From positions 930,001 to 994,000 of the forward strand of contig NZ_CP014692.1 of the NCBI RefSeq assembly GCF_002005445.1: a stretch of 64,000 bases of DNA. The letters run 5' to 3'. A program made the position numbers and the translations under genes. Under the pieces are notes generated by a model. It saw only the letters and a program-made list of their open reading frames with translations, had not been told where the DNA came from and ran no database searches. Shown here in pieces: positions 2,962 through 12,636 of the stretch. This DNA comes from Acetobacter aceti. Its GTDB lineage: Bacteria > Pseudomonadota > Alphaproteobacteria > Acetobacterales > Acetobacteraceae. Each line of letters starts with the position of its first letter. Position 1 is the first letter of the stretch.

Positions 2962-3987
2962 TCATATCTGGCAGCACATCTCCGCAATTACACATGCTAC
3001 TCCGGCCAGCGCTCCAAGTGAGAGCGTCACTACCGTCACCACACGTGGCCCTGCAACCAGCACATTCCGTAAATCAACCCCCAGTCCTAACGCAGCCATC
3101 GCTACGAGCGTGAGAAGGCTGCTTGTTGTGTGCATTGGCGCAAGCAGGGCGTGCGACACCAGATCCAGCGAGCGGGCTGCCATCAGTCCCATGAAGATCA
3201 GAATAAAGGGTGGCAGAAAGCGACTCAGGCAGAAACGAGGCTTTGCGCTGCATACGGGACGTCGCCGTGCGTAAATCAGGGAGGATACTGCGACAACCGG
3301 CCCGAGCATCAGCACACGGACCAGTTTGACCAACGTGCCAATCTGTACCGCTGCTGTGCCCATCGGGCCAGCGGCAGCCAGCACCTGAGGTACGGCGTAG
3401 ACCGTGAGGCCCGCAAGCACACCGCTGGCGGGCTGAGTCAGATGCAGGATGTGGGCTGCCAGAGGCAGGAGCAGGACCACCAGAATGCCCAGTACGGCGG
3501 TGAAAGCCACCGCAGTGGCAGTGTCCTCACTGTCGGCGTCGATGGCTGCCGCGACTGCGGCAATGGCGGAGTTGCCACAGATGGCGTTTCCGCAGGCGAT
3601 CAGCACCGCCATTTTGGAAGGCAGGCCGCAGACGTGTCCCAGCATTATGCCAATCCCGATCGTAATGCCAACGGTTCCCACAATCCCAAGAAGAAGGGCC
3701 GGACCGGCCCGCAGAACCATTTCGACACTGACGGCGGCTCCCATGAGCGCAACGGCTGCTTCCAGCAGGATATGAGCGGAAAAATGGATGCCCCGTTCAA
3801 AAATGACCGAGGGTTTCCAGATTGTGCGCAGAACGGTTCCTGTCAGGATGGCGAGCACAAGACTGTCAATCCATGCGGTACCTGCCAGAAAAAGCTCCGC
3901 CTGTTCGAGGAATATGGCGCTTCCGGCGACTGTCAGGCTGAGCAGGAGCCCCGGAATTGCAGGTAAAAAGAGAACTGTCCGTTTCAT
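2962..3987 (-). CDS. YeiH/UPF0324 family putative sulfate/anion exporter
   Basis: A 341-residue inner-membrane protein with about ten hydrophobic segments. It matches the YeiH family (Cons_hypoth698) through the conserved centre GNAICGNSAIAAVAAAIDA, the block VYAVPQVLAAAGPMGTAAVQIGTLVKLVRVLMLGPV, and the C-terminal LGVDLRNV. Family members are annotated as putative sulfate exporters and are often induced by taurine or sulfite. It is divergent from a LysR-type gene with only 75 bases between them, the usual arrangement for a LysR regulator and its target. Nothing in the sequence proves the substrate. Confidence 0.88.
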   Translation of the reverse strand: MKRTVLFLPAIPGLLLSLTVAGSAIFLEQAELFLAGTAWIDSLVLAILTGTVLRTIWKPSVIFERGIHFSAHILLEAAVALMGAAVSVEMVLRAGPALLLGIVGTVGITIGIGIMLGHVCGLPSKMAVLIACGNAICGNSAIAAVAAAIDADSEDTATAVAFTAVLGILVVLLLPLAAHILHLTQPASGVLAGLTVYAVPQVLAAAGPMGTAAVQIGTLVKLVRVLMLGPVVAVSSLIYARRRPVCSAKPRFCLSRFLPPFILIFMGLMAARSLDLVSHALLAPMHTTSSLLTLVAMAALGLGVDLRNVLVAGPRVVTVVTLSLGALAGVACVIAEMCCQI

Positions 3988-4062
3988 GTGGAGAGGATCG
4001 TGTCATATGGATGAAAAATCCAATCGATTGATATGGTTTTTTTAATAAGGTAAATCTATTGA

Positions 4063-4938
4063 ATGACACTTGAACAGCTTCGTATTTTCGTGACAGTGGC
4101 GGAACTTCTGAACATGCGGGCAGCGGCGGAAACGCTGCATCTCTCACAGCCGGCGGTCAGCGCTGCTATCGCTGCGCTGGAAGAGCGGCATGCGACACGT
4201 CTTTTCGACCGCGTGGGACGAGGGCTTGAACTCAACGAGGCGGGCAGGGCTTTTCTGCCAGCCGCGCGGAATGTGCTGTCCAGAGCAGCAGAAGCGGTGC
4301 AGATTCTGGATGATCTCTCGGGACTTTTGCGCGGAGAACTGCGGATTGCGGCCAGTCAGACCGTGGCGACCTACTGGTTGCCGGCTTTTCTGACCCGGTT
4401 TGCCACGCACTATCCGGCCATCAGGTTAAAGTGTAGCGTCAGCAATACCATGCAGGCCGCTGCCGCCGTGATGGAGCGGGAGGCTGATCTGGGGTTTGTG
4501 GAAGGGCAGGTTGATAAGGCGTTCCTGCTGCATAAACAGCCAGTGGCATCAGATGATTTTAATCTTTATGCGGCGTCCGGACATCCTCTCGTCGGCCATT
4601 CTCTGACCCGGCAGGATCTCGTGGATGCGCAGTGGGTGTTGCGTGAGGAAGGCTCCGGCACACGGGAGCATCTGGCGCATTGTCTGAAATCGCTCTTTCA
4701 GCTTGATCTGGCCGATCTCGATATCCGTCTCGTGCTGCCTTCCAATGAAGCGGTGCTGGAAGGAGTGGCCAGCGGCGGACTGATCTCGGCCATGTCCGAT
4801 CTTGCGGCTGCTTCCCGTGTCCGGGCAGGGCTGGTGGTGCCGCTTGGTTGTAATCTTGAGAAACGGCGTTTTCATCTGCTGCGTCATCGTGAACGACCTT
4901 TGAGTCGGGCTGCGCAGGCGTTCGTGGCAATGCTGTAG
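4063..4938 (+). CDS. LysR-family transcriptional regulator of the divergent yeiH-like gene
   Basis: A 291-residue LysR-type regulator. The N-terminal winged helix runs from residue 1 to ~60 (LEQLRIFVTVAELLNMRAAAETLHLSQPAVSAAI). A periplasmic-binding-like effector domain follows from ~90 (LRGELRIAASQTVATYWLP), as in the CysB/CbbR/YeiE branch. It starts 75 bases from the divergent exporter gene, and the AT-rich space between (3988-4062) must hold both promoters and the operator. By family precedent it activates the divergent gene when bound to a small anion or metabolite, and autorepresses. The effector is unknown. Confidence 0.9.
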   Translation: MTLEQLRIFVTVAELLNMRAAAETLHLSQPAVSAAIAALEERHATRLFDRVGRGLELNEAGRAFLPAARNVLSRAAEAVQILDDLSGLLRGELRIAASQTVATYWLPAFLTRFATHYPAIRLKCSVSNTMQAAAAVMEREADLGFVEGQVDKAFLLHKQPVASDDFNLYAASGHPLVGHSLTRQDLVDAQWVLREEGSGTREHLAHCLKSLFQLDLADLDIRLVLPSNEAVLEGVASGGLISAMSDLAAASRVRAGLVVPLGCNLEKRRFHLLRHRERPLSRAAQAFVAML

Positions 4939-5049
4939 GTGTCTTTGCGTTTCTGAAAGAAATCTCGTCATTCTGTTTCGGTTGTTTCCGCAATCCACTC
5001 AAGGCATCCTTGGTCCAACAGGCTGATGAAACCGGATGGAGTGCAAAAT

Positions 5050-6447
5050 ATGTCTGACAGGACAGAATACGACGTTGATCTGCTGGTCATTGGCGCGGGA
5101 TCGGGCGGCGTTCGTTGCGCGCGCATTGCCGCCGGACATGGCGCCAAGGTCGCCGTGGTCGAAAGCCGTCACTGGGGCGGAACCTGCGTCAATCTGGGCT
5201 GCGTGCCTAAGAAGCTGATGGTGCAGGCCAGCGAATATGGTGACTATGTCGAGGACAGCCACGGATTTGGCTGGAACACGCAGGCAGGTCGTTTCGACTG
5301 GGGCAGGCTGATTGCCGCCAAGGACAGGGAAATCTCACGCCTGAACGGCATTTATGTCTCGATGCTTGAAAAGGCGGGCGTTCGGCTGCTGACGGGTTTC
5401 GCCAGCTTCGAGGATGCGCATACTCTTGTTGTTTCACCATCGGAACTGGCTCCCGATGCGAAGCCGGAGCGCATTACGGCGAAGCAGATTGTCATTGCGA
5501 CAGGATCGACGCCTTCGAAACTGGAGATTGAAGGCTCTGAACTGGCCATCACGTCTGACGAGGTTTTCGGGCTGAAGGAGATGCCGAAGCGTGTCTGCAT
5601 TATCGGAGGCGGCTATATCGGCATCGAGTTCGCGGGAATTTTTGCGGGGCTCGGGGCGGAGGTCGATCTGGTCTATCGTCAGGCGTTACCTCTGCGCGGC
5701 TTCGATGAGGACCTTCGCGAAGCGCTGCATGAGGCCATCAGTCAGCGTGGCGTGACCCAGCACGTTCAGGCCAGCCCGAAGAGCATCCGCAAGGAAGGCG
5801 AGGCTCTGGTCGTCGCACTTGATAACGGCACGGAACTGACTGTCGACTGTGTGCTGACGGCCACAGGGCGTCACCCGAAGAGCGGCAGGCTCGGGCTTGA
5901 AAACACTCGCGTTCGTCGGACAGCAGGGGGACGCATCGAGGTCGACCGGCACTTCGAAACCGCCGAACCCGGCGTGTTCGCCATCGGCGACGTGACGAAT
6001 CATCTCAACCTGACCCCTGTCGCCATTGCCGAGGGGCATATCCTTGCCGACCGGCTGTTTGCGGATCGGTCCCGTGAGTGGTCGTTCGACACCACGCCGA
6101 AAGCGGTGTTCTTCACGCCACCGCTCGCCAGTGTCGGTCTGTCGGAGGCTGAGGCGGCTGAAAAGGGCGCGGTGGATATCTATGTCTCTAAGTTCCGCCC
6201 GATGCGTCACACGCTCGGTGGTCGCGAACGGCGTACGCTGATGAAGCTGGTCGTCGATCAGGCGACCCAGAAGGTGGTCGGTGCGCACATGCTTGGCGAG
6301 GATGCGCCGGAACTGATGCAGGGACTGGCCATTGCCGTGACGGCGGGGCTGCGGAAGGCTGATTTCGACCGGACAATCGGCATTCACCCGAGTTCTGCCG
6401 AGGAGTTTGTCACAATGCGCACGCGGACGCGTGTGACCGGAGATTGA
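5050..6447 (+). CDS. gor: Glutathione-disulfide reductase
   Basis: A 465-residue FAD- and NADPH-dependent disulfide reductase that keeps glutathione reduced. The FAD Rossmann motif VIGAGSGGVRCAR is near residue 12. The redox-active disulfide lies in GGTCVNLGCVPKK, the glutathione reductase form. The second Rossmann fold is IIGGGYIGIEF, the FAD-binding ATGRHP and FAIGDVTN motifs follow, and the catalytic His-Glu pair is in GIHPSSAEE near the C-terminus. A longer reading from 5026 is possible, but GGAG at 5038-5041 sits 8 bases before ATG 5050, so I take the later start. It is monocistronic. Confidence 0.92.
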   Translation: MSDRTEYDVDLLVIGAGSGGVRCARIAAGHGAKVAVVESRHWGGTCVNLGCVPKKLMVQASEYGDYVEDSHGFGWNTQAGRFDWGRLIAAKDREISRLNGIYVSMLEKAGVRLLTGFASFEDAHTLVVSPSELAPDAKPERITAKQIVIATGSTPSKLEIEGSELAITSDEVFGLKEMPKRVCIIGGGYIGIEFAGIFAGLGAEVDLVYRQALPLRGFDEDLREALHEAISQRGVTQHVQASPKSIRKEGEALVVALDNGTELTVDCVLTATGRHPKSGRLGLENTRVRRTAGGRIEVDRHFETAEPGVFAIGDVTNHLNLTPVAIAEGHILADRLFADRSREWSFDTTPKAVFFTPPLASVGLSEAEAAEKGAVDIYVSKFRPMRHTLGGRERRTLMKLVVDQATQKVVGAHMLGEDAPELMQGLAIAVTAGLRKADFDRTIGIHPSSAEEFVTMRTRTRVTGD

Positions 6448-6499
6448 CGGATTTTTCCTGCTTCAAGGCGCATTCTTTCCCGATTGACGGGCTTGAGTA

Positions 6500-6512
6500 A
6501 TTCGTTACGAAT
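6500..6512. promoter_or_regulatory. 13-bp palindrome upstream of amtB
   Basis: ATTCGT-T-ACGAAT is a perfect 6+1+6 inverted repeat about 147 bases before the amtB start, in the otherwise empty 6448-6658 interval. It could be an operator. No sigma-54 (-24/-12) element was convincing, so no claim is made about nitrogen control. Confidence 0.3.
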
Positions 6513-6658
6513 AAGCTACGTATAGGCAATATCAGTGTCATCTCACAACGGGATGAACGTCTTGATGTGTGTGCCGTCAGCAGGGTGTCCCCACGGGTCC
6601 TGCCGGGCGGGCGCACAGCATGATCAGGCGTGAATGAGGCAGGGGGCAGCGAGCGTTT

Positions 6659-8095
6659 ATGAATATTCAGGTTTCCTCGTTCGCGGGGCATGCCCCGTAT
6701 CGGCAGGATGAGGCGGACAGGACGCTGAAATCCCGCTTCTCCGGAGTTCTGGCGGCTGCTTCCGTTGGTGCGGCCGGCCTCTTTGCGGCCATGCCGGCCT
6801 TTGCTCAGGACGCCGCAGCGCCGGCCCCGAGCATCGATACGGGTGACACGGCCTGGATGCTGGTCAGCACGGCGCTGGTGCTGATGATGACCATTCCGGG
6901 TCTTGGCCTGTTTTACGCCGGTATGGTTCGCAAGAAGAACGTGCTGGCGACTCTCATGCAGAGTTTCGCCCTCTGCTGTATCATCACCATCGTCTGGATG
7001 GTGGCGGGTTACTCGCTCGCCTTCTCGAATGGCACGCCTTATGTCGGCGGCCTGTCCAAGGCGTTCCTCGCGACACTGGGCGACCATATCAGCAAGGGCG
7101 CGGACATCCCGTTCACCATTGGTGCGGGTACTGACGCGGCCACGACCATGACGATCCCTGAGAGCATCTTCATGATGTTCCAGATGACCTTCGCCATCAT
7201 CACACCGGCTCTGATCGCAGGCGCCTATGCGGAGCGCATGAAGTTTTCGGCGGTGTGCCTGTTCAGCATCCTGTGGTCGCTGATCGTTTACGCACCGGTT
7301 GCCCACTGGGTCTGGAGCCCGCTCGGCTGGCTCGCCGGTATGGGCACGCTGGATTTCGCCGGTGGCACGGTCGTCCATATCAACGCCGGTGTCGCCGGTC
7401 TGGTGTGCGCCCTGGTCCTCGGCAAGCGTCGTGGCTATGGCACGGAAGACCTTGCGCCGTTCAACCTGACCTATGCCGTCATAGGCGCTTCCCTTCTGTG
7501 GGTGGGCTGGTTCGGCTTTAACGCTGGTTCCGCTGTCGGTGCGAATGGCCGTGCGGGCATGGCGATGGCCACCACACAGATCGCAGCGGCTGCGGCGGGC
7601 GTGTCCTGGATGGTCGCCGAATGGTTCCGCACGGGCAAGCCAACGGTTCTCGGCATCCTCTCCGGCGCTGTCGGCGGTCTTGTCGCCATTACGCCTGCCG
7701 CCGGTTTTGTGCTGCCGGGCGGCGCTCTGGCCATCGGCCTGATCACTGGCGTCGTCTGCTACTGGGGTGCGACATCCCTCAAGCACATGATGGGCTATGA
7801 CGACAGCCTCGACGCGTTCGGTGTGCATGGCGTTGGCGGCATCGTCGGCGCTCTTCTGACCGGTGTCTTTGCTTACGGTCCGCTCTCCGCGACGGACGCC
7901 AACCCGGCAGGCACCTCCGGTTCACTGCATCAGCTTCTGGTTCAGGCCGAGGCTGTGGGTGTAACGATTGTCTGGTGTGGCATCATGACGTTCATCCTGC
8001 TGAAGATCGTTGACCTCGTCGTCGGTCTGCGCGTCTCCACCGAGGCTGAGCAGGAAGGTCTGGACGTTGCGCTGCATGGCGAGCGTATCAACTGA
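6659..8095 (+). CDS. amtB: Ammonium transporter AmtB
   Basis: A 478-residue Amt/Rh channel for ammonium/ammonia at the inner membrane. After an Ala-rich signal-peptide-like segment ending near AMPAFAQDA (about residue 50) come eleven hydrophobic helices. Amt hallmarks include DTAWMLVSTALVLMMTIPGLGLFYAGMV, FAGGTVVHINAGVAGLV (first pore His) and DDSLDAFGVHGVGGIVGALLTG (second pore His). The conserved Phe gate and Trp/Ser recruitment-site regions are also in place. No glnK/glnB gene is adjacent, although most bacteria pair amtB with one. A strong terminator follows. Confidence 0.95.
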   Translation: MNIQVSSFAGHAPYRQDEADRTLKSRFSGVLAAASVGAAGLFAAMPAFAQDAAAPAPSIDTGDTAWMLVSTALVLMMTIPGLGLFYAGMVRKKNVLATLMQSFALCCIITIVWMVAGYSLAFSNGTPYVGGLSKAFLATLGDHISKGADIPFTIGAGTDAATTMTIPESIFMMFQMTFAIITPALIAGAYAERMKFSAVCLFSILWSLIVYAPVAHWVWSPLGWLAGMGTLDFAGGTVVHINAGVAGLVCALVLGKRRGYGTEDLAPFNLTYAVIGASLLWVGWFGFNAGSAVGANGRAGMAMATTQIAAAAAGVSWMVAEWFRTGKPTVLGILSGAVGGLVAITPAAGFVLPGGALAIGLITGVVCYWGATSLKHMMGYDDSLDAFGVHGVGGIVGALLTGVFAYGPLSATDANPAGTSGSLHQLLVQAEAVGVTIVWCGIMTFILLKIVDLVVGLRVSTEAEQEGLDVALHGERIN

Positions 8096-8121
8096 ACCCT
8101 GAGAGATCAGTCATTTCTGGG

Positions 8122-8153
8122 AAAGGGGCGGGTCGTTTGATCCGCCCCTTTTT
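8122..8153 (+). terminator. Rho-independent terminator after amtB
   Basis: Stem AAAGGGGCGG (8122-8131) with CCGCCCCTTT (8142-8151), then T residues, 27 bases after the amtB stop. Confidence 0.9.
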
Positions 8154-8263
8154 CGTTCAGGGCTGCGGGCTTGTATGATCACGCGTTCTGGTTTCTTCTG
8201 AGGATGGATGCTGTGCCGCTTGGGCGCGGCATCACCGTCAACATTGTGATGTAAGGACAGCCG

Positions 8264-8788
8264 ATGGGCTTCAATCGTTCCGTTCGTACGGTGACTGCTT
8301 CGCTTGCTCTTCTGGCAGCGGGTGCAGCCTGGTCTGTGGTTCTGCCGGGTGAGGCGCATGCCGCCGTGACGGCCAAAGAGTGCCATGCGAAATTCAAGGC
8401 GGCCAAGGAAGGCGGCACTCTGGCCGGTCAGAGTTACAAGGATTTCAAGGCTGCTCAGTGCGCTGGCGCCGAGTCCGAGTCTGAGTCGGACGAAAAGACC
8501 GCGGATACGGCCCCTGCCACGACTCCTGCTGCTGGCGCAGTGGCTGAGACCAAGACCGAAAGCAAGTCGAAGACGACCTCCACGGCTTCGACCTATACAG
8601 GAAATGCCGTGTTCCCGAGCAAGGTTTCCTCGAAATACTCTTCCCTGTCCGCAGGCAAGGCTCGTATGAAGACCTGTCTGGACCAGTATCACGCCAACAA
8701 AGCAGGTGGTGGTAATGGCGGTCTGGCCTGGATTCAGAAAGGTGGCGGTTATTACAGTGTTTGTACGAAGCGTCTGAAAGGCGAATAA
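8264..8788 (+). CDS. Small secreted protein with two PsiF-like Cys/Lys segments
   Basis: A 174-residue protein with a clear signal peptide (hydrophobic core ASLALLAAGAAW, cleavage probably after GEAHA near residue 33). The mature part has two short related segments: ECHAKFKAAKEGG...FKAAQC at residues ~39-67 and RMKTCLDQYHANKAGG...YYSVCTKRLK at ~135-172. An acidic, Ser/Thr/Ala-rich linker separates them. The spacing of the Cys pairs and the Lys-rich pattern loosely resemble the PsiF repeat of phosphate-starvation proteins, but this is weak. I do not recognise a function. It stands alone between two terminators, and ATG 8264 follows GGACAG. Confidence 0.7.
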   Translation: MGFNRSVRTVTASLALLAAGAAWSVVLPGEAHAAVTAKECHAKFKAAKEGGTLAGQSYKDFKAAQCAGAESESESDEKTADTAPATTPAAGAVAETKTESKSKTTSTASTYTGNAVFPSKVSSKYSSLSAGKARMKTCLDQYHANKAGGGNGGLAWIQKGGGYYSVCTKRLKGE

Positions 8789-8816
8789 ACCTTTCCGCCG
8801 TTTGTGTTTTTGCAAG

Positions 8817-8846
8817 AAACCGCCCCTTGAAACGGGGCGGTTTTTT
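8817..8846 (+). terminator. Rho-independent terminator
   Basis: Stem AAACCGCCCC (8817-8826) with GGGGCGGTTT (8834-8843) and a run of six T ends the preceding small secreted-protein gene. Confidence 0.92.
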
Positions 8847-8976
8847 GTATTCCGGCCTGTATTTTAAGGGCTTGGAAAGGGATGTATCCAAAAAATTAGC
8901 TATTTGAACCAATAATTGGACCCCAGAGGATTTTTCTAAGTGCGATCAAAAGGTTGCGCTGTGACTGGGGGAAAAA

Positions 8977-11900
8977 ATGACCACTTTGGATGTCACCGGA
9001 CAAAACGAAAATCTAACCACGTCCGTCGATAGTGCGACGATCGAAAATGGGGGACGGCTCAACGTCTCGTCCGGCGGTGTAGTTTCCGCAGTCACGGTCA
9101 TGAAGGGAGGCCTGCTTTACGTCGGTAAGCAGGGCGATATTTCCGATATACCGGGTGCGCAGGGAATCGTCAGCGGAGGCGTCATCTCCGCTGGTGGAAC
9201 GCTGACGGTTTATGGCGGCGGTCTGGTCGAGAACGCCCTGGTCAACTCAAGCAATCTCATGGTGGCCAGCGGAGCAGCCGCAAGCTCCCTGACACTTGCT
9301 TCTGGTGTTGCGGAAACCCTCTACGGAGTGGATTCAGGCGCGACAATCCAGGCCAATGCCGACCAGATGATCCAGGCGGGCGGTAGTGGCGTAGGCGCTA
9401 CGCTGCAACTGGGTACGCAGGATGTTAATCAGGGCGGTGTAGCGATTTCGGCCACCGTTATCGGAGATAACGCGAACGATCTTGCTTATGGCGGCGGTCA
9501 GAACATTTATGGGGGAGGATACGCCTCCCACACGCTCGTCACGCAATATGGCAATCAGCTGATTGCCAGTGATGGGTCCGCCACTGATACGACGCTGACG
9601 AATGGTGGTATCCAGGACATCCAGCAGGGCGGTTCTGCGACCGACACGACTGTCAGCAGTGGTGGCGTGTTGCAGGTCGAAGGGGGCGCGTTCCTGTCAG
9701 GCGCCACGATTTCCAGTGGGGGCACACTGGCGGCGACCAGTGTGACGGGGTCCGCTACGACAGTTTCCAATGTGACCGTGATGAGCGGCGGCACGCTGGA
9801 CATGAAAGATACGGGGATCTCCGTCACCGGACTGACTCTGTATAGCGGCGCTAATATTCAGCTTGATACCATGACTTACTCGACGTCTGGCGCCCAGCAG
9901 ACGACCTTTGCGGTCTCAGGGAATACTCTGACGGTTTCAGGTTATGATGGAGGTGGAAATGCGATTACGCAGGCTTTCTCCTTTGCTGGAACGGCCGGGA
10001 CCATCACACCGGACGAATTCAGTCTTGTTCATGGTACTAACGGAACCGGTATTAATTATGCGGCCTGCTACTGCCCCGGTACGCTGATCGCCACGAAAGA
10101 GGGTGAAGTTCCGGTCGAGATGCTGAAAATCGGTGACATGGTACGCACCGCGTCAGGCGCTCTCAGAAAAATCCGCTGGATCGGTCGACGCAGCTACGCT
10201 GCCGAGTTTGTCAGCAATAATCGCGGGCTGCTTCCGGTCCTCATCAAAGCTGGCGCTTTTTCTGACAATGTGCCGCACCGTGACCTGAAAGTTTCTCCTC
10301 TCCACGCCATGTATCTGGATGGTGTCCTTGTGGCGGCCAGCGCGCTGATCAACGGCGAGACGGTCATTCAGTGTGATCTGAAGGAGCAGATCGACTATTT
10401 CAATGTCGAACTGGACAGCCATGATCTGCTGATGGCGGAAGGTGCGCCTTCTGAAAGCTACGTCGAGGATGGCGGACGTGGCATGTTCCACAACGCGGCT
10501 GAATTTTACTCGTATTATCCTGATGCGGTGCCGACTGAAGCCGTTCACTATGCTCCGCGTCTTGAAGCCGGGGAAGCGCTTGTTGCCATCTGGCAGCGCA
10601 TCAATGAACGGGCGCAGAAACTGAAAACGCCGCGTCTGTCGGGGAGGGTGGTGTACGCCAGCGCCTATGGTATCGCCGGATGGTTCTCCGGGATTGCGGA
10701 GGAACAGTCCTTTCCCGTTGAACTGGTTCTTGATGGCAAGGTGGTCGCGCGGCTGATGACCGGGGAGGGACAGACTGTTCCGACTGAGACTGGCCTGGAA
10801 ATGCGTCATTGCTTTGGGGGGGCGTATCCGCAGGCCCTGGCTTCCCGTGATGTGCTGGTAAGACGGGCTGCGGATGGTCAATATCTGTTCCCGGGTGTTC
10901 TCTCTGAGACGCCCGAAGGAATGCCGTTCACTGAACAAGCGGATGATGAACAGGTTACGCCCTTTGATCCTGCTGATTATCGCGGTGGTCTGGACGAAGC
11001 CTCCCATGCTTGTGTCAGGGGCTGGATATGGAATGCAAAACATCCGTCGAAAAAGGCCAGCATTGACGTCTGCATCGACGGCAAGCCCATTGCGACAGTG
11101 CCTGCCGTCAACTATCGGGCTGACCTCGTTCCCGCTGGTATGGGGAATGGCTGGTCTGGTTTTCACATGGTTCTGAAAGAGCCGCTCGACTGGAGGACAG
11201 CGCATACGATCGAGGTGCGTTACAGCGGCACGGATGTTCATGTGCCGGGTTCTCCCGCCCATCTGTCTGTTCCTGAGCGGTTTGATGACGCGTTACGCGA
11301 TGTCTTTGAGCGGGCAGTGAAGGATCTGACCTCTCCGGGAGAGCGCAGGCAGGCGCTGTCGTTCATTCTGGATCAGGCGGAACATCTTCGACAGAAAGAA
11401 GCTGATCTTGACGGTCGCCGGGAGGAGCGGATGGCTCTTCATAACGAGCGGCGGCTGGCTGGACGGGCTGCCGCGGACATGCCGGTTACCCGACGTGCGC
11501 TCGTCATCAGTGAGGGGATGCCGCGTATCGGACAGGATCCCGATGCTGGTCCACTTCTGTCCCATATCCGGTCACTCAAGCGGTTGGGCTACGATGTGAC
11601 TGTCACGACAGTGGATCCTGCGCCAGCACCACATATGGAAAAGCTTTTTGAAGAAGAAGGGGTTTCCATCGCAAGAGCGCCGCTTTATGCGTCGCCCGAA
11701 GAGGTGCTGCGTCGTCAGGCCGGCTGCTTTGAACTGGTTTATCTGCGGGGGCTGAGTGCGGCGTCTTCCTATGCCGGTCTGGCGCGTCGCCATATGGGAC
11801 GTGCAAAGCTGGTTTATGGTGTGCGCGAACTTCAGTATGTTCGCATTGATCGTCAGGCTGAAACGGAATCCCGTATGGATCTGCAGCGCGCGATCGGACG

Positions 11901-12636
11901 GCTGCGCACATACGAGATTACAACAGCGCTCCTCTGTGATCTGGTCCTTGTGCACTCGGAAGTGGAGGCGACCCGTCTGAAGCATCTTGTGCCAGCCCTG
12001 AACGTGCATGTTGTTCCATGGGACGTGCAGCCGGAAGCGGTCACGCGGCCATCCTCCACACGATCCGGCGTCGCTTTTTTCGGTTATTACGACCGGGCGG
12101 ACTGTCTCGATGCGGCTATTCTCCTTGTCCGTGAGATCATGCCGCTGGTGTGGGCACGTCGTCCCGACATCAGATGCCTTCTTGCAGGGCCAGGGCAGGG
12201 GAAGCCAGTCAGCACACTCGCCATGCCGGTTGGGCCGGATTGTGGTGGTGTGGAAATTCTGGGTGCGTTTGATGAGCCATCTAAAGGCTTTTTCCCACAG
12301 GCCCGCGTCGGCGTCGTGCCGCTGAATTTCGGAGCGGGTGTCGATGGAGTGGTTCTGTCTGCTTTTGCGGCAGGTATTCCCTGCGTGATGAGCGCGGTCT
12401 CCTCTGAGGGGCTGGCGTTACCGGCGCGCTTGGCGGGACTGGTGCAGAACAGTGTCGAAGGGATTGCCGAGCAGATTCTTCGCCTCCATGAAGAGCCGGA
12501 AACGTCTGATGAACTGGGACGTACGGAACTTCGCCTGATCTGTGAACAATTCTCCACCGAAGTTGTGGATCGTTGTCTCGGTCAGGCGCTGGGGATCAAA
12601 GCGGCTTCCCGGACGGCAGCCAGTATGGCTGGTTAA
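8977..12636 (+). CDS. AIDA-repeat / Hint / glycosyltransferase fusion protein
   Basis: A 1219-residue multidomain protein. Residues ~1-330 are AIDA/adhesin-like beta-helix repeats, each ~20 residues with GG-x-V-type turns (SSGGVLQVEGGAF, VMSGGTLDMKD). A Hint domain follows at ~364-500: it starts ACYCPGT with Cys364, then LIATKEGEVPVEMLKIGDMV, and has a DLKVSPLHAM block. Hint domains are the self-splicing/self-cleaving fold of inteins and Hedgehog. Residues ~545-800 look like two beta-sandwich modules, the second containing VRGWIWNAKHP and VNYRADLV. Next is a charged, probably coiled-coil stretch, then a GT-B glycosyltransferase-like domain from ~838 (ALVISEGMPRIGQDPDAG) to ~1200. No signal peptide and no autotransporter barrel are visible. 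AIDA-Hint proteins occur in Acetobacteraceae; the glycosyltransferase on the same chain is unusual. Whether Hint cleaves here is inference. Confidence 0.8.
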   Translation: MTTLDVTGQNENLTTSVDSATIENGGRLNVSSGGVVSAVTVMKGGLLYVGKQGDISDIPGAQGIVSGGVISAGGTLTVYGGGLVENALVNSSNLMVASGAAASSLTLASGVAETLYGVDSGATIQANADQMIQAGGSGVGATLQLGTQDVNQGGVAISATVIGDNANDLAYGGGQNIYGGGYASHTLVTQYGNQLIASDGSATDTTLTNGGIQDIQQGGSATDTTVSSGGVLQVEGGAFLSGATISSGGTLAATSVTGSATTVSNVTVMSGGTLDMKDTGISVTGLTLYSGANIQLDTMTYSTSGAQQTTFAVSGNTLTVSGYDGGGNAITQAFSFAGTAGTITPDEFSLVHGTNGTGINYAACYCPGTLIATKEGEVPVEMLKIGDMVRTASGALRKIRWIGRRSYAAEFVSNNRGLLPVLIKAGAFSDNVPHRDLKVSPLHAMYLDGVLVAASALINGETVIQCDLKEQIDYFNVELDSHDLLMAEGAPSESYVEDGGRGMFHNAAEFYSYYPDAVPTEAVHYAPRLEAGEALVAIWQRINERAQKLKTPRLSGRVVYASAYGIAGWFSGIAEEQSFPVELVLDGKVVARLMTGEGQTVPTETGLEMRHCFGGAYPQALASRDVLVRRAADGQYLFPGVLSETPEGMPFTEQADDEQVTPFDPADYRGGLDEASHACVRGWIWNAKHPSKKASIDVCIDGKPIATVPAVNYRADLVPAGMGNGWSGFHMVLKEPLDWRTAHTIEVRYSGTDVHVPGSPAHLSVPERFDDALRDVFERAVKDLTSPGERRQALSFILDQAEHLRQKEADLDGRREERMALHNERRLAGRAAADMPVTRRALVISEGMPRIGQDPDAGPLLSHIRSLKRLGYDVTVTTVDPAPAPHMEKLFEEEGVSIARAPLYASPEEVLRRQAGCFELVYLRGLSAASSYAGLARRHMGRAKLVYGVRELQYVRIDRQAETESRMDLQRAIGRLRTYEITTALLCDLVLVHSEVEATRLKHLVPALNVHVVPWDVQPEAVTRPSSTRSGVAFFGYYDRADCLDAAILLVREIMPLVWARRPDIRCLLAGPGQGKPVSTLAMPVGPDCGGVEILGAFDEPSKGFFPQARVGVVPLNFGAGVDGVVLSAFAAGIPCVMSAVSSEGLALPARLAGLVQNSVEGIAEQILRLHEEPETSDELGRTELRLICEQFSTEVVDRCLGQALGIKAASRTAASMAG

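Follow-up and report, generated by a model that had tools for sequence, protein, structure and literature searches.

A probably self-processing adhesin of Acetobacter aceti with a Hint domain and an altered glycosyltransferase module

A 64,000-nucleotide stretch of the Acetobacter aceti genome (positions 930,001 to 994,000 of contig NZ_CP014692.1; hereafter the window) holds on its + strand an open reading frame (ORF) of 1219 amino acids (8977..12636). Its product, the window protein, joins on one chain an adhesin-like repeat passenger, a Hint domain, two immunoglobulin (Ig)-like sandwiches and a glycosyltransferase (GT) domain of GT-B fold, an order proposed in a first-pass annotation made from the letters alone and borne out here by Pfam searches and a structure model. 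Judged from its sequence, the protein probably cuts itself, and glycosylation of itself in the conventional manner is improbable.

The account we offer, tentative as a whole, is that of a secreted self-processing adhesin precursor of the bacterial intein-like (BIL) or Hedgehog type. Export of the precursor would need no Sec signal and might follow a type I-like route that reads an Ala/Gly C-terminus; its Hint domain would form a thioester at Cys364 and separate residues 1-363, the adhesin, from the Hint-sandwich-GT half; a GT-shaped module that is no normal nucleoside diphosphate (NDP)-sugar transferase in this clade would provide the C-terminal half with recognition or anchorage; and the adhesin repeats would be glycosylated in trans by TibC-type heptosyltransferases. 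Sequence and structure model give this account its basis in the repeats, in a Hint domain with the first-step residues and without His-Asn at its predicted end, and in a conserved C-terminal half; past the presence of the Hint residues, we infer the mechanism.

The Hint domain and its predicted chemistry

Residues 364-497 (10066..10467) match Hint_2 (PF13403) with 143.2 bits against a cut-off of 28.4, and in a fold comparison the predicted Hint fold of the residues from Cys364 on matches BIL domains, inteins and Hedgehog. Cys364 (10066..10068), the predicted nucleophile, is aligned to residue 258 of Hedgehog and to the first residue of inteins, in agreement with the Hint start assigned by the first-pass annotation, and both the first-residue Cys and the block-B His of the Hint superfamily are present. 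In an alignment of 44 GT-fused proteins (A1), Cys364, Ser440, His443, His482, Asp483, Glu493 and Asn506 are invariant in all rows, so that the residues for a chemistry able to part the adhesin from the rest, as that annotation had supposed, are in place throughout; in an alignment of 53 GT-less Hint proteins (A2, drawn from the 77 entries P0045-P0121), every row again has the Cys, the Ser, both His, the Glu and the Asn at the corresponding positions, and 45 rows have the Asp.

The far end of the fold differs from that of a splicing intein. The Hint fold is predicted to end at about residue 494, where the intein alignments end as judged by their range ends rather than residue by residue, and no His-Asn stands there before a Cys, Ser or Thr. 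Instead, Glu493 is found in 97/97 rows and Ser or Thr at 494 in 96/97, the pair being complete in 44/44 A1 and 52/53 A2 rows; Glu-Ser also occupies this place in 13/13 rows from another family of the class. With Glu-Ser/Thr rather than His-Asn at this end, what is left to the domain is the first step, the acyl shift to Cys364, and N-terminal cleavage or transfer. Acyl shift followed by N-terminal cleavage or transfer is described for Hog (PMC7664689), and N-terminal cleavage or transfer is likewise given for type B of the BIL domains (PMC7765530). In its motifs (intein motifs without the C-terminal one) the domain is consistent with type B. The Hint domain thus quite probably makes an acyl shift and cleaves ahead of Cys364 in the manner of Hog and BIL domains, as far as its residues indicate.

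Behind the fold follows a conserved extension (residues 498-540, 10468..10596) in which the alignment has Phe504 and Asn506 invariant. Asn506 lies 12 residues beyond the predicted fold end; the residue before it is His or Gln in 95/97 rows (His in 31/44 A1 and 46/53 A2, otherwise mostly Gln), and the residue after it is Ala in 42/44 A1 rows. This Asn (residues 505-506, window 10489-10494), present in all 97 rows, was not seen in the printed Hint_2 stretches of the other family.

Linkage of Hint and glycosyltransferase

Loci with related GTs were fetched by two patterns over GT positions 1114-1122 and 1032-1041, so that part of the conservation in those two stretches comes from the selection itself; Lys1123 and Lys1125 are covered by neither pattern. 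The following counts concern the best 80 of at least 471 confirmed loci. In 25 of the 27 best-ranked loci the GT is either fused to a Hint domain in one frame (16) or encoded directly downstream of a Hint gene (9), the other two having no Hint (L051, L060), against none of the 53 lower-ranked loci, among them L121 of Acetobacter estunensis. All but two of the 27 come from Acetobacteraceae or Acidocellaceae, L060 and L067 belonging to other or unnamed Proteobacteria. Split pairs are separated by at most 54 bases, and one overlaps by 4. The GT tree requires at least four changes between fused and split arrangements, well-supported branches forcing two per label (by a quick method, with some long branches). 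Recurrent fusion or adjacency, together with these changes, indicates that the Hint and GT parts probably work together as a unit. The window's genome itself holds both arrangements, with the window protein and L037 fused, L032 and L033 split, and L041 a lone GT without Hint. By coordinates, the split Hint and GT genes of L033 (7158-12461) share a frame and are 48 bases apart, with a stop codon in between; matches in several other genomes of the genus have one TGA inside, and most other split pairs lie in different frames.

An altered glycosyltransferase site

Residues 837-1208 (11485..12600) have a GT-B fold and a Glyco_trans_1_4 match; profile, structure model and fold match converge on the GT-B-like C-terminal part that had been proposed. 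What sets this GT apart is its motif, PLRxGAGxKGKVL[DE], which in the window clade is replaced by PLNFGAGVDGVVLS. The window protein reads PLNFGAGVDGVVLSA, and along residues 1115-1130 (12319..12366) the alignment gives PLNFGAGVDGVVLSAF where most fused relatives have PLR[FY]GAGxKGKVL[DE]S; the HAPN and ADLHH stretches are changed too. At the four positions at which the GT4 group carries R, K, K and D/E, the protein has Asn1117, Asp1123, Val1125 and Ser1128, the changes in the clade being Arg1117 to Asn, Lys1123 to Asp, Lys1125 to Val, the acid at 1128 to Ser and, further upstream, Asn1043 to Cys or Ser. They are common to P0001-P0006 (6/44 A1 rows) and to the genus loci L122-L124 and L126, largely the same proteins, and the motif is partly changed in P0007, P0008, L125, L139 and L140. 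Among the 38 A1 rows outside the clade, Arg1117 is kept in 36, Lys1123 in 33, Lys1125 in 37 and an acid at 1128 in 29, and across five overlapping tabulated sets Lys1125 is kept in 37/44, 4/4, 27/27, 24/28 and 54/54. The GT of the fused paralogue L037 also retains the motif.

In GT4 enzymes generally, a motif of this kind binds the donor phosphate. Its loss makes ordinary nucleotide-sugar binding by the domain improbable, and we consider it likely, on the residues seen, that the GT of the window protein is without normal transferase activity. Decay is a poor explanation: a recently decayed GT is opposed both by low ratios of nonsynonymous to synonymous change (in two pairs, dN/dS of 0.14-0.15 over the N half and 0.07-0.08 over the C half, rough values at a dS of 0.8-1.4) and by the conservation of the motif stretches, in which 53/59 positions are invariant in five clade members against 212/304 in the rest of the GT domain (p 0.001), a contrast weakened by the picking of these stretches after the data had been seen and by the family-wide conservation of part of their positions. 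In the same comparison the low invariance of the first sandwich (7/96) stems from an orthologue that is without it. The site therefore looks like a repurposed one rather than a pseudogene, and the module in this clade is a probable, and unusual, pseudo-GT.

C-terminus and export

The window protein ends in Met-Ala-Gly (12625..12633), and an Ala or Gly end is common in Hint_2 polypeptides by tail comparison (35/44 in A1 and 41/53 in A2, unreduced). When a single tail was kept from each group agreeing at 16 or more of the final 40 positions, 33 of 42 Hint polypeptides ended so (fused 17/24, GT-less 16/18), compared with 70 of 275 control ORFs (p 5e-11), the latter being mechanical ORFs of at least 200 amino acids, some of which may not be genes; with that control rate, a general property of these genomes was rejected as the cause. 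Among GTs of the same loci that carry no Hint domain, 1/13 has such an end (a set that takes in L060, from outside Acetobacteraceae, and the non-partner GTs of L041, L051 and L149), as do 12/38 GTs of lower-ranked loci. Taken pairwise, 1/11 separate partner GTs ends so (L045) against 9/9 of their Hint partners, L057 and L059 being left out of the latter count as they start at the locus edge. Together, the counts for Hint polypeptides, fused GTs and separate GTs indicate that the Ala/Gly end goes with the Hint polypeptide, and stands behind the GT where the two are fused. Such ends recur in 12/13 rows from a distant family of the class (two genomes, one weak row) and in 7/10 rows from another genus of the window's family (one weak row). 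An export or sorting signal read from the end is the simplest reading of these tails, to which we give an even chance; a degradation tag would be another conceivable one.

A crude hydropathy rule found no Sec signal in the window protein and passed 2/97 proteins, both with a late stretch; the rule is weak, since of two control proteins from the window one passes and one just fails, and 10 of the 97 rows are without an initial Met. Next to the L030-type Hint gene, and divergent to it, lies a HlyD-ABC (ATP-binding cassette) pair in 12/12 genomes, a thirteenth (G006), with the genes on different contigs, falling outside the count. At L030 itself (3419-9680; G000 C1, 48.4-54.7 kb) a C39-type ABC exporter and HlyD are divergent to a 578-aa Hint protein, and the protein of this type ends in Gln/Arg-Val-Ala in all 12 genomes. 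A double-glycine leader on this paralogue (YVLQGG) was considered and dropped, the GG being kept in only 3/12 aligned orthologues.

Glycosylation of the repeats

The passenger (residues ~19-320, 9031..9936, outer limits by eye) is made of strand-loop-strand repeats of the AIDA/TibA/Ag43 adhesin type. The first-pass annotation had the protein glycosylate itself, a proposal that fares badly, as the GT4 motif retained by most other relatives is lost in the window clade. TibC-type heptosyltransferases are likelier to glycosylate the passenger repeats. Enzymes of this type (PF21129) occur in 34 of 49 genomes of the genus, with three in the window's genome; in each of these 34 the window protein finds a match of E <=2.4e-23, and in the other 15 none better than 7.3e-21, although this threshold was set afterwards and the genomes are related, which weakens the co-occurrence. 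TibC-like genes adjoin Hint genes in L031, L037 and L055, and in L031 (6069-12376) a 1700-aa AIDA-Hint gene overlaps the gene of a TibC-type heptosyltransferase by 4 bases. According to PMC3835316, Aah and TibC add heptose, Aah recognises a strand-loop-strand motif, and adhesins of the AIDA type are modified by a partner glycosyltransferase.

Weighing the alternatives

Several observations weigh against the account given above. The exporter adjoins one paralogue type only, and its ABC gene (E 1e-150 or better) is found in 20/49 genomes against 44/49 with a match to P0001. The GT4 motif is retained by most fused relatives; this points to a catalytic GT across the family as a whole and sits poorly with the idea that the entire chain is exported. 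Nor is an acid at 1128 general, being present in only 18/54 distant GTs. Asn506 could, moreover, be a displaced C-terminal cleavage site, as in A-type BIL domains with a shifted His-Asn.

Retention of the motif is also what a self-glycosylating precursor would lead one to expect, with a tethered GT4 decorating its own passenger before or during release by Hint; the fused or directly downstream GT in 25/27 loci, the minimum of four fused/split changes on the tree and the action of a partner glycosyltransferase on AIDA-type adhesins (PMC3835316) all speak for it. We nevertheless find it improbable, given a window clade without the motif residues (Lys1123 to Asp included), the presence and co-occurrence of TibC-type enzymes, and passengers other than AIDA, namely a subtilase in P0038 and, in P0034, a phosphatase-type domain followed by a few segments that resemble the repeats. 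That Hint merely hydrolyses, the GT half being a discarded or retained scaffold with no role related to sugars, agrees with the many Hint proteins without an in-frame GT in the window's genome (two of its 10 Hint_2 places have one); purifying selection on the GT domain and the conservation of its motif stretches make this, too, unlikely.

Attachment of the adhesin to a sugar or lipid nucleophile, which the first-pass annotation had raised, is possible. In the form of a Hedgehog-like ligation, the GT-shaped region would be an adduct-recognition region that binds a glycan or glycolipid; a hydroxyl of that molecule would attack the Hint thioester, and the adhesin would end up esterified to it. 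A Hint with first-step residues and without His-Asn at its predicted end, a fold of binding type behind it on the same chain, and an altered motif that is conserved rather than decayed would suit such a reaction; against it, any nucleophile other than water is hypothetical, and the window-clade motif is unlike that of the rest of the family, so that we rate this reading as distinctly doubtful. Its fullest form, a bacterial counterpart of Hedgehog in which a selected pseudo-GT without NDP-sugar binding presents a glycan and the adhesin becomes esterified to surface polysaccharide, is a long shot. Were the acyl acceptor a sugar, the outcome would be an ester linkage of protein to polysaccharide made by autoprocessing. 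The recurrent GT fusion, the conserved altered motif and the Ala/Gly end make the questions of cleavage, acyl acceptor and end-reader directly testable.

Relation to known systems

The window protein shares its strand-loop-strand passenger with the self-associating autotransporters AIDA-I, TibA and Ag43, the partners of the heptosyltransferases Aah and TibC, and TibC-like genes adjoin Hint genes in the three loci named; unlike these autotransporters it has no barrel match, no Sec signal by the crude rule, and a Hint and GT4-like part after the passenger. No barrel family of type Va autotransporters was among its Pfam matches at E 10, and its C-terminus is modelled as the GT-B domain. With BIL domains, type B especially, it has in common the Hint fold, Cys1, the block-B His and the missing His-Asn at the predicted end, whereas its Hint domain is followed by Ig-like modules and a GT-B domain. 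To the Hog domain it is likened by first-step residues and a fold match to 1at0, and the region that follows could choose the nucleophile. From GT4 enzymes such as TarM, PimB' and HepE the window clade differs by its replaced motif. Hint and RTX domains are each over-represented in strongly responding Rhodobacteraceae, according to PMC12487129, and Hint_2 proteins of another family of the class resemble the window protein in mostly ending in Ala or Gly. The literature searched held no account of Hint_2 protein function in acetic acid bacteria; in one cellulose over-producing mutant, a change lies in a Hint-domain protein described as of unknown function (PMC11999647).

Spread of the family and remaining features

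This kind of probably self-processing adhesin is real and patchily spread. Among the best 120 of 175 homologues, 43 (P0002-P0044) carry GT4-type and Hint_2 Pfam domains, 28 of them also AIDA; P0002 is a 99% near-copy of the window protein, and the exceptions in passenger are P0038, with a subtilase, and P0034, with an exo/endonuclease-phosphatase domain (its repeat-like segments were recognised by eye). One further protein, P0092, combines Hcp-type (PF05638) and Hint_2 domains. The window's genome has 10 Hint_2 places, one of them a fragment. The Hint_2 cut-off is exceeded in 5/190 genomes of the class, the window's included; 183 have no match at E 0.001, and one genome of another family (G070) has 17.

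The first Ig-like sandwich (residues 555-641, 10639..10899) and the second (666-763, 10972..11265) are known from their predicted fold, and a helical linker (771-834, 11287..11478) from the structure model. In the G040 orthologue nothing aligns to query residues 552-643, the first sandwich. Both sandwiches carry a GWA motif and have no Pfam match; the module recurs in other Hint proteins and also fronts Hint-less GT proteins, for example L035:6209-8725. A defence-system reading was dropped, PADLOC giving no match at E 1. Gene neighbourhood was likewise set aside as a clue: beyond Hint, GT and, in three loci, TibC-like genes, the printed clusters amounted to synteny inside two groups of loci, L033/L061/L063/L065 and L047/L050/L053, the latter of which also has an unidentified protein in common with L031.

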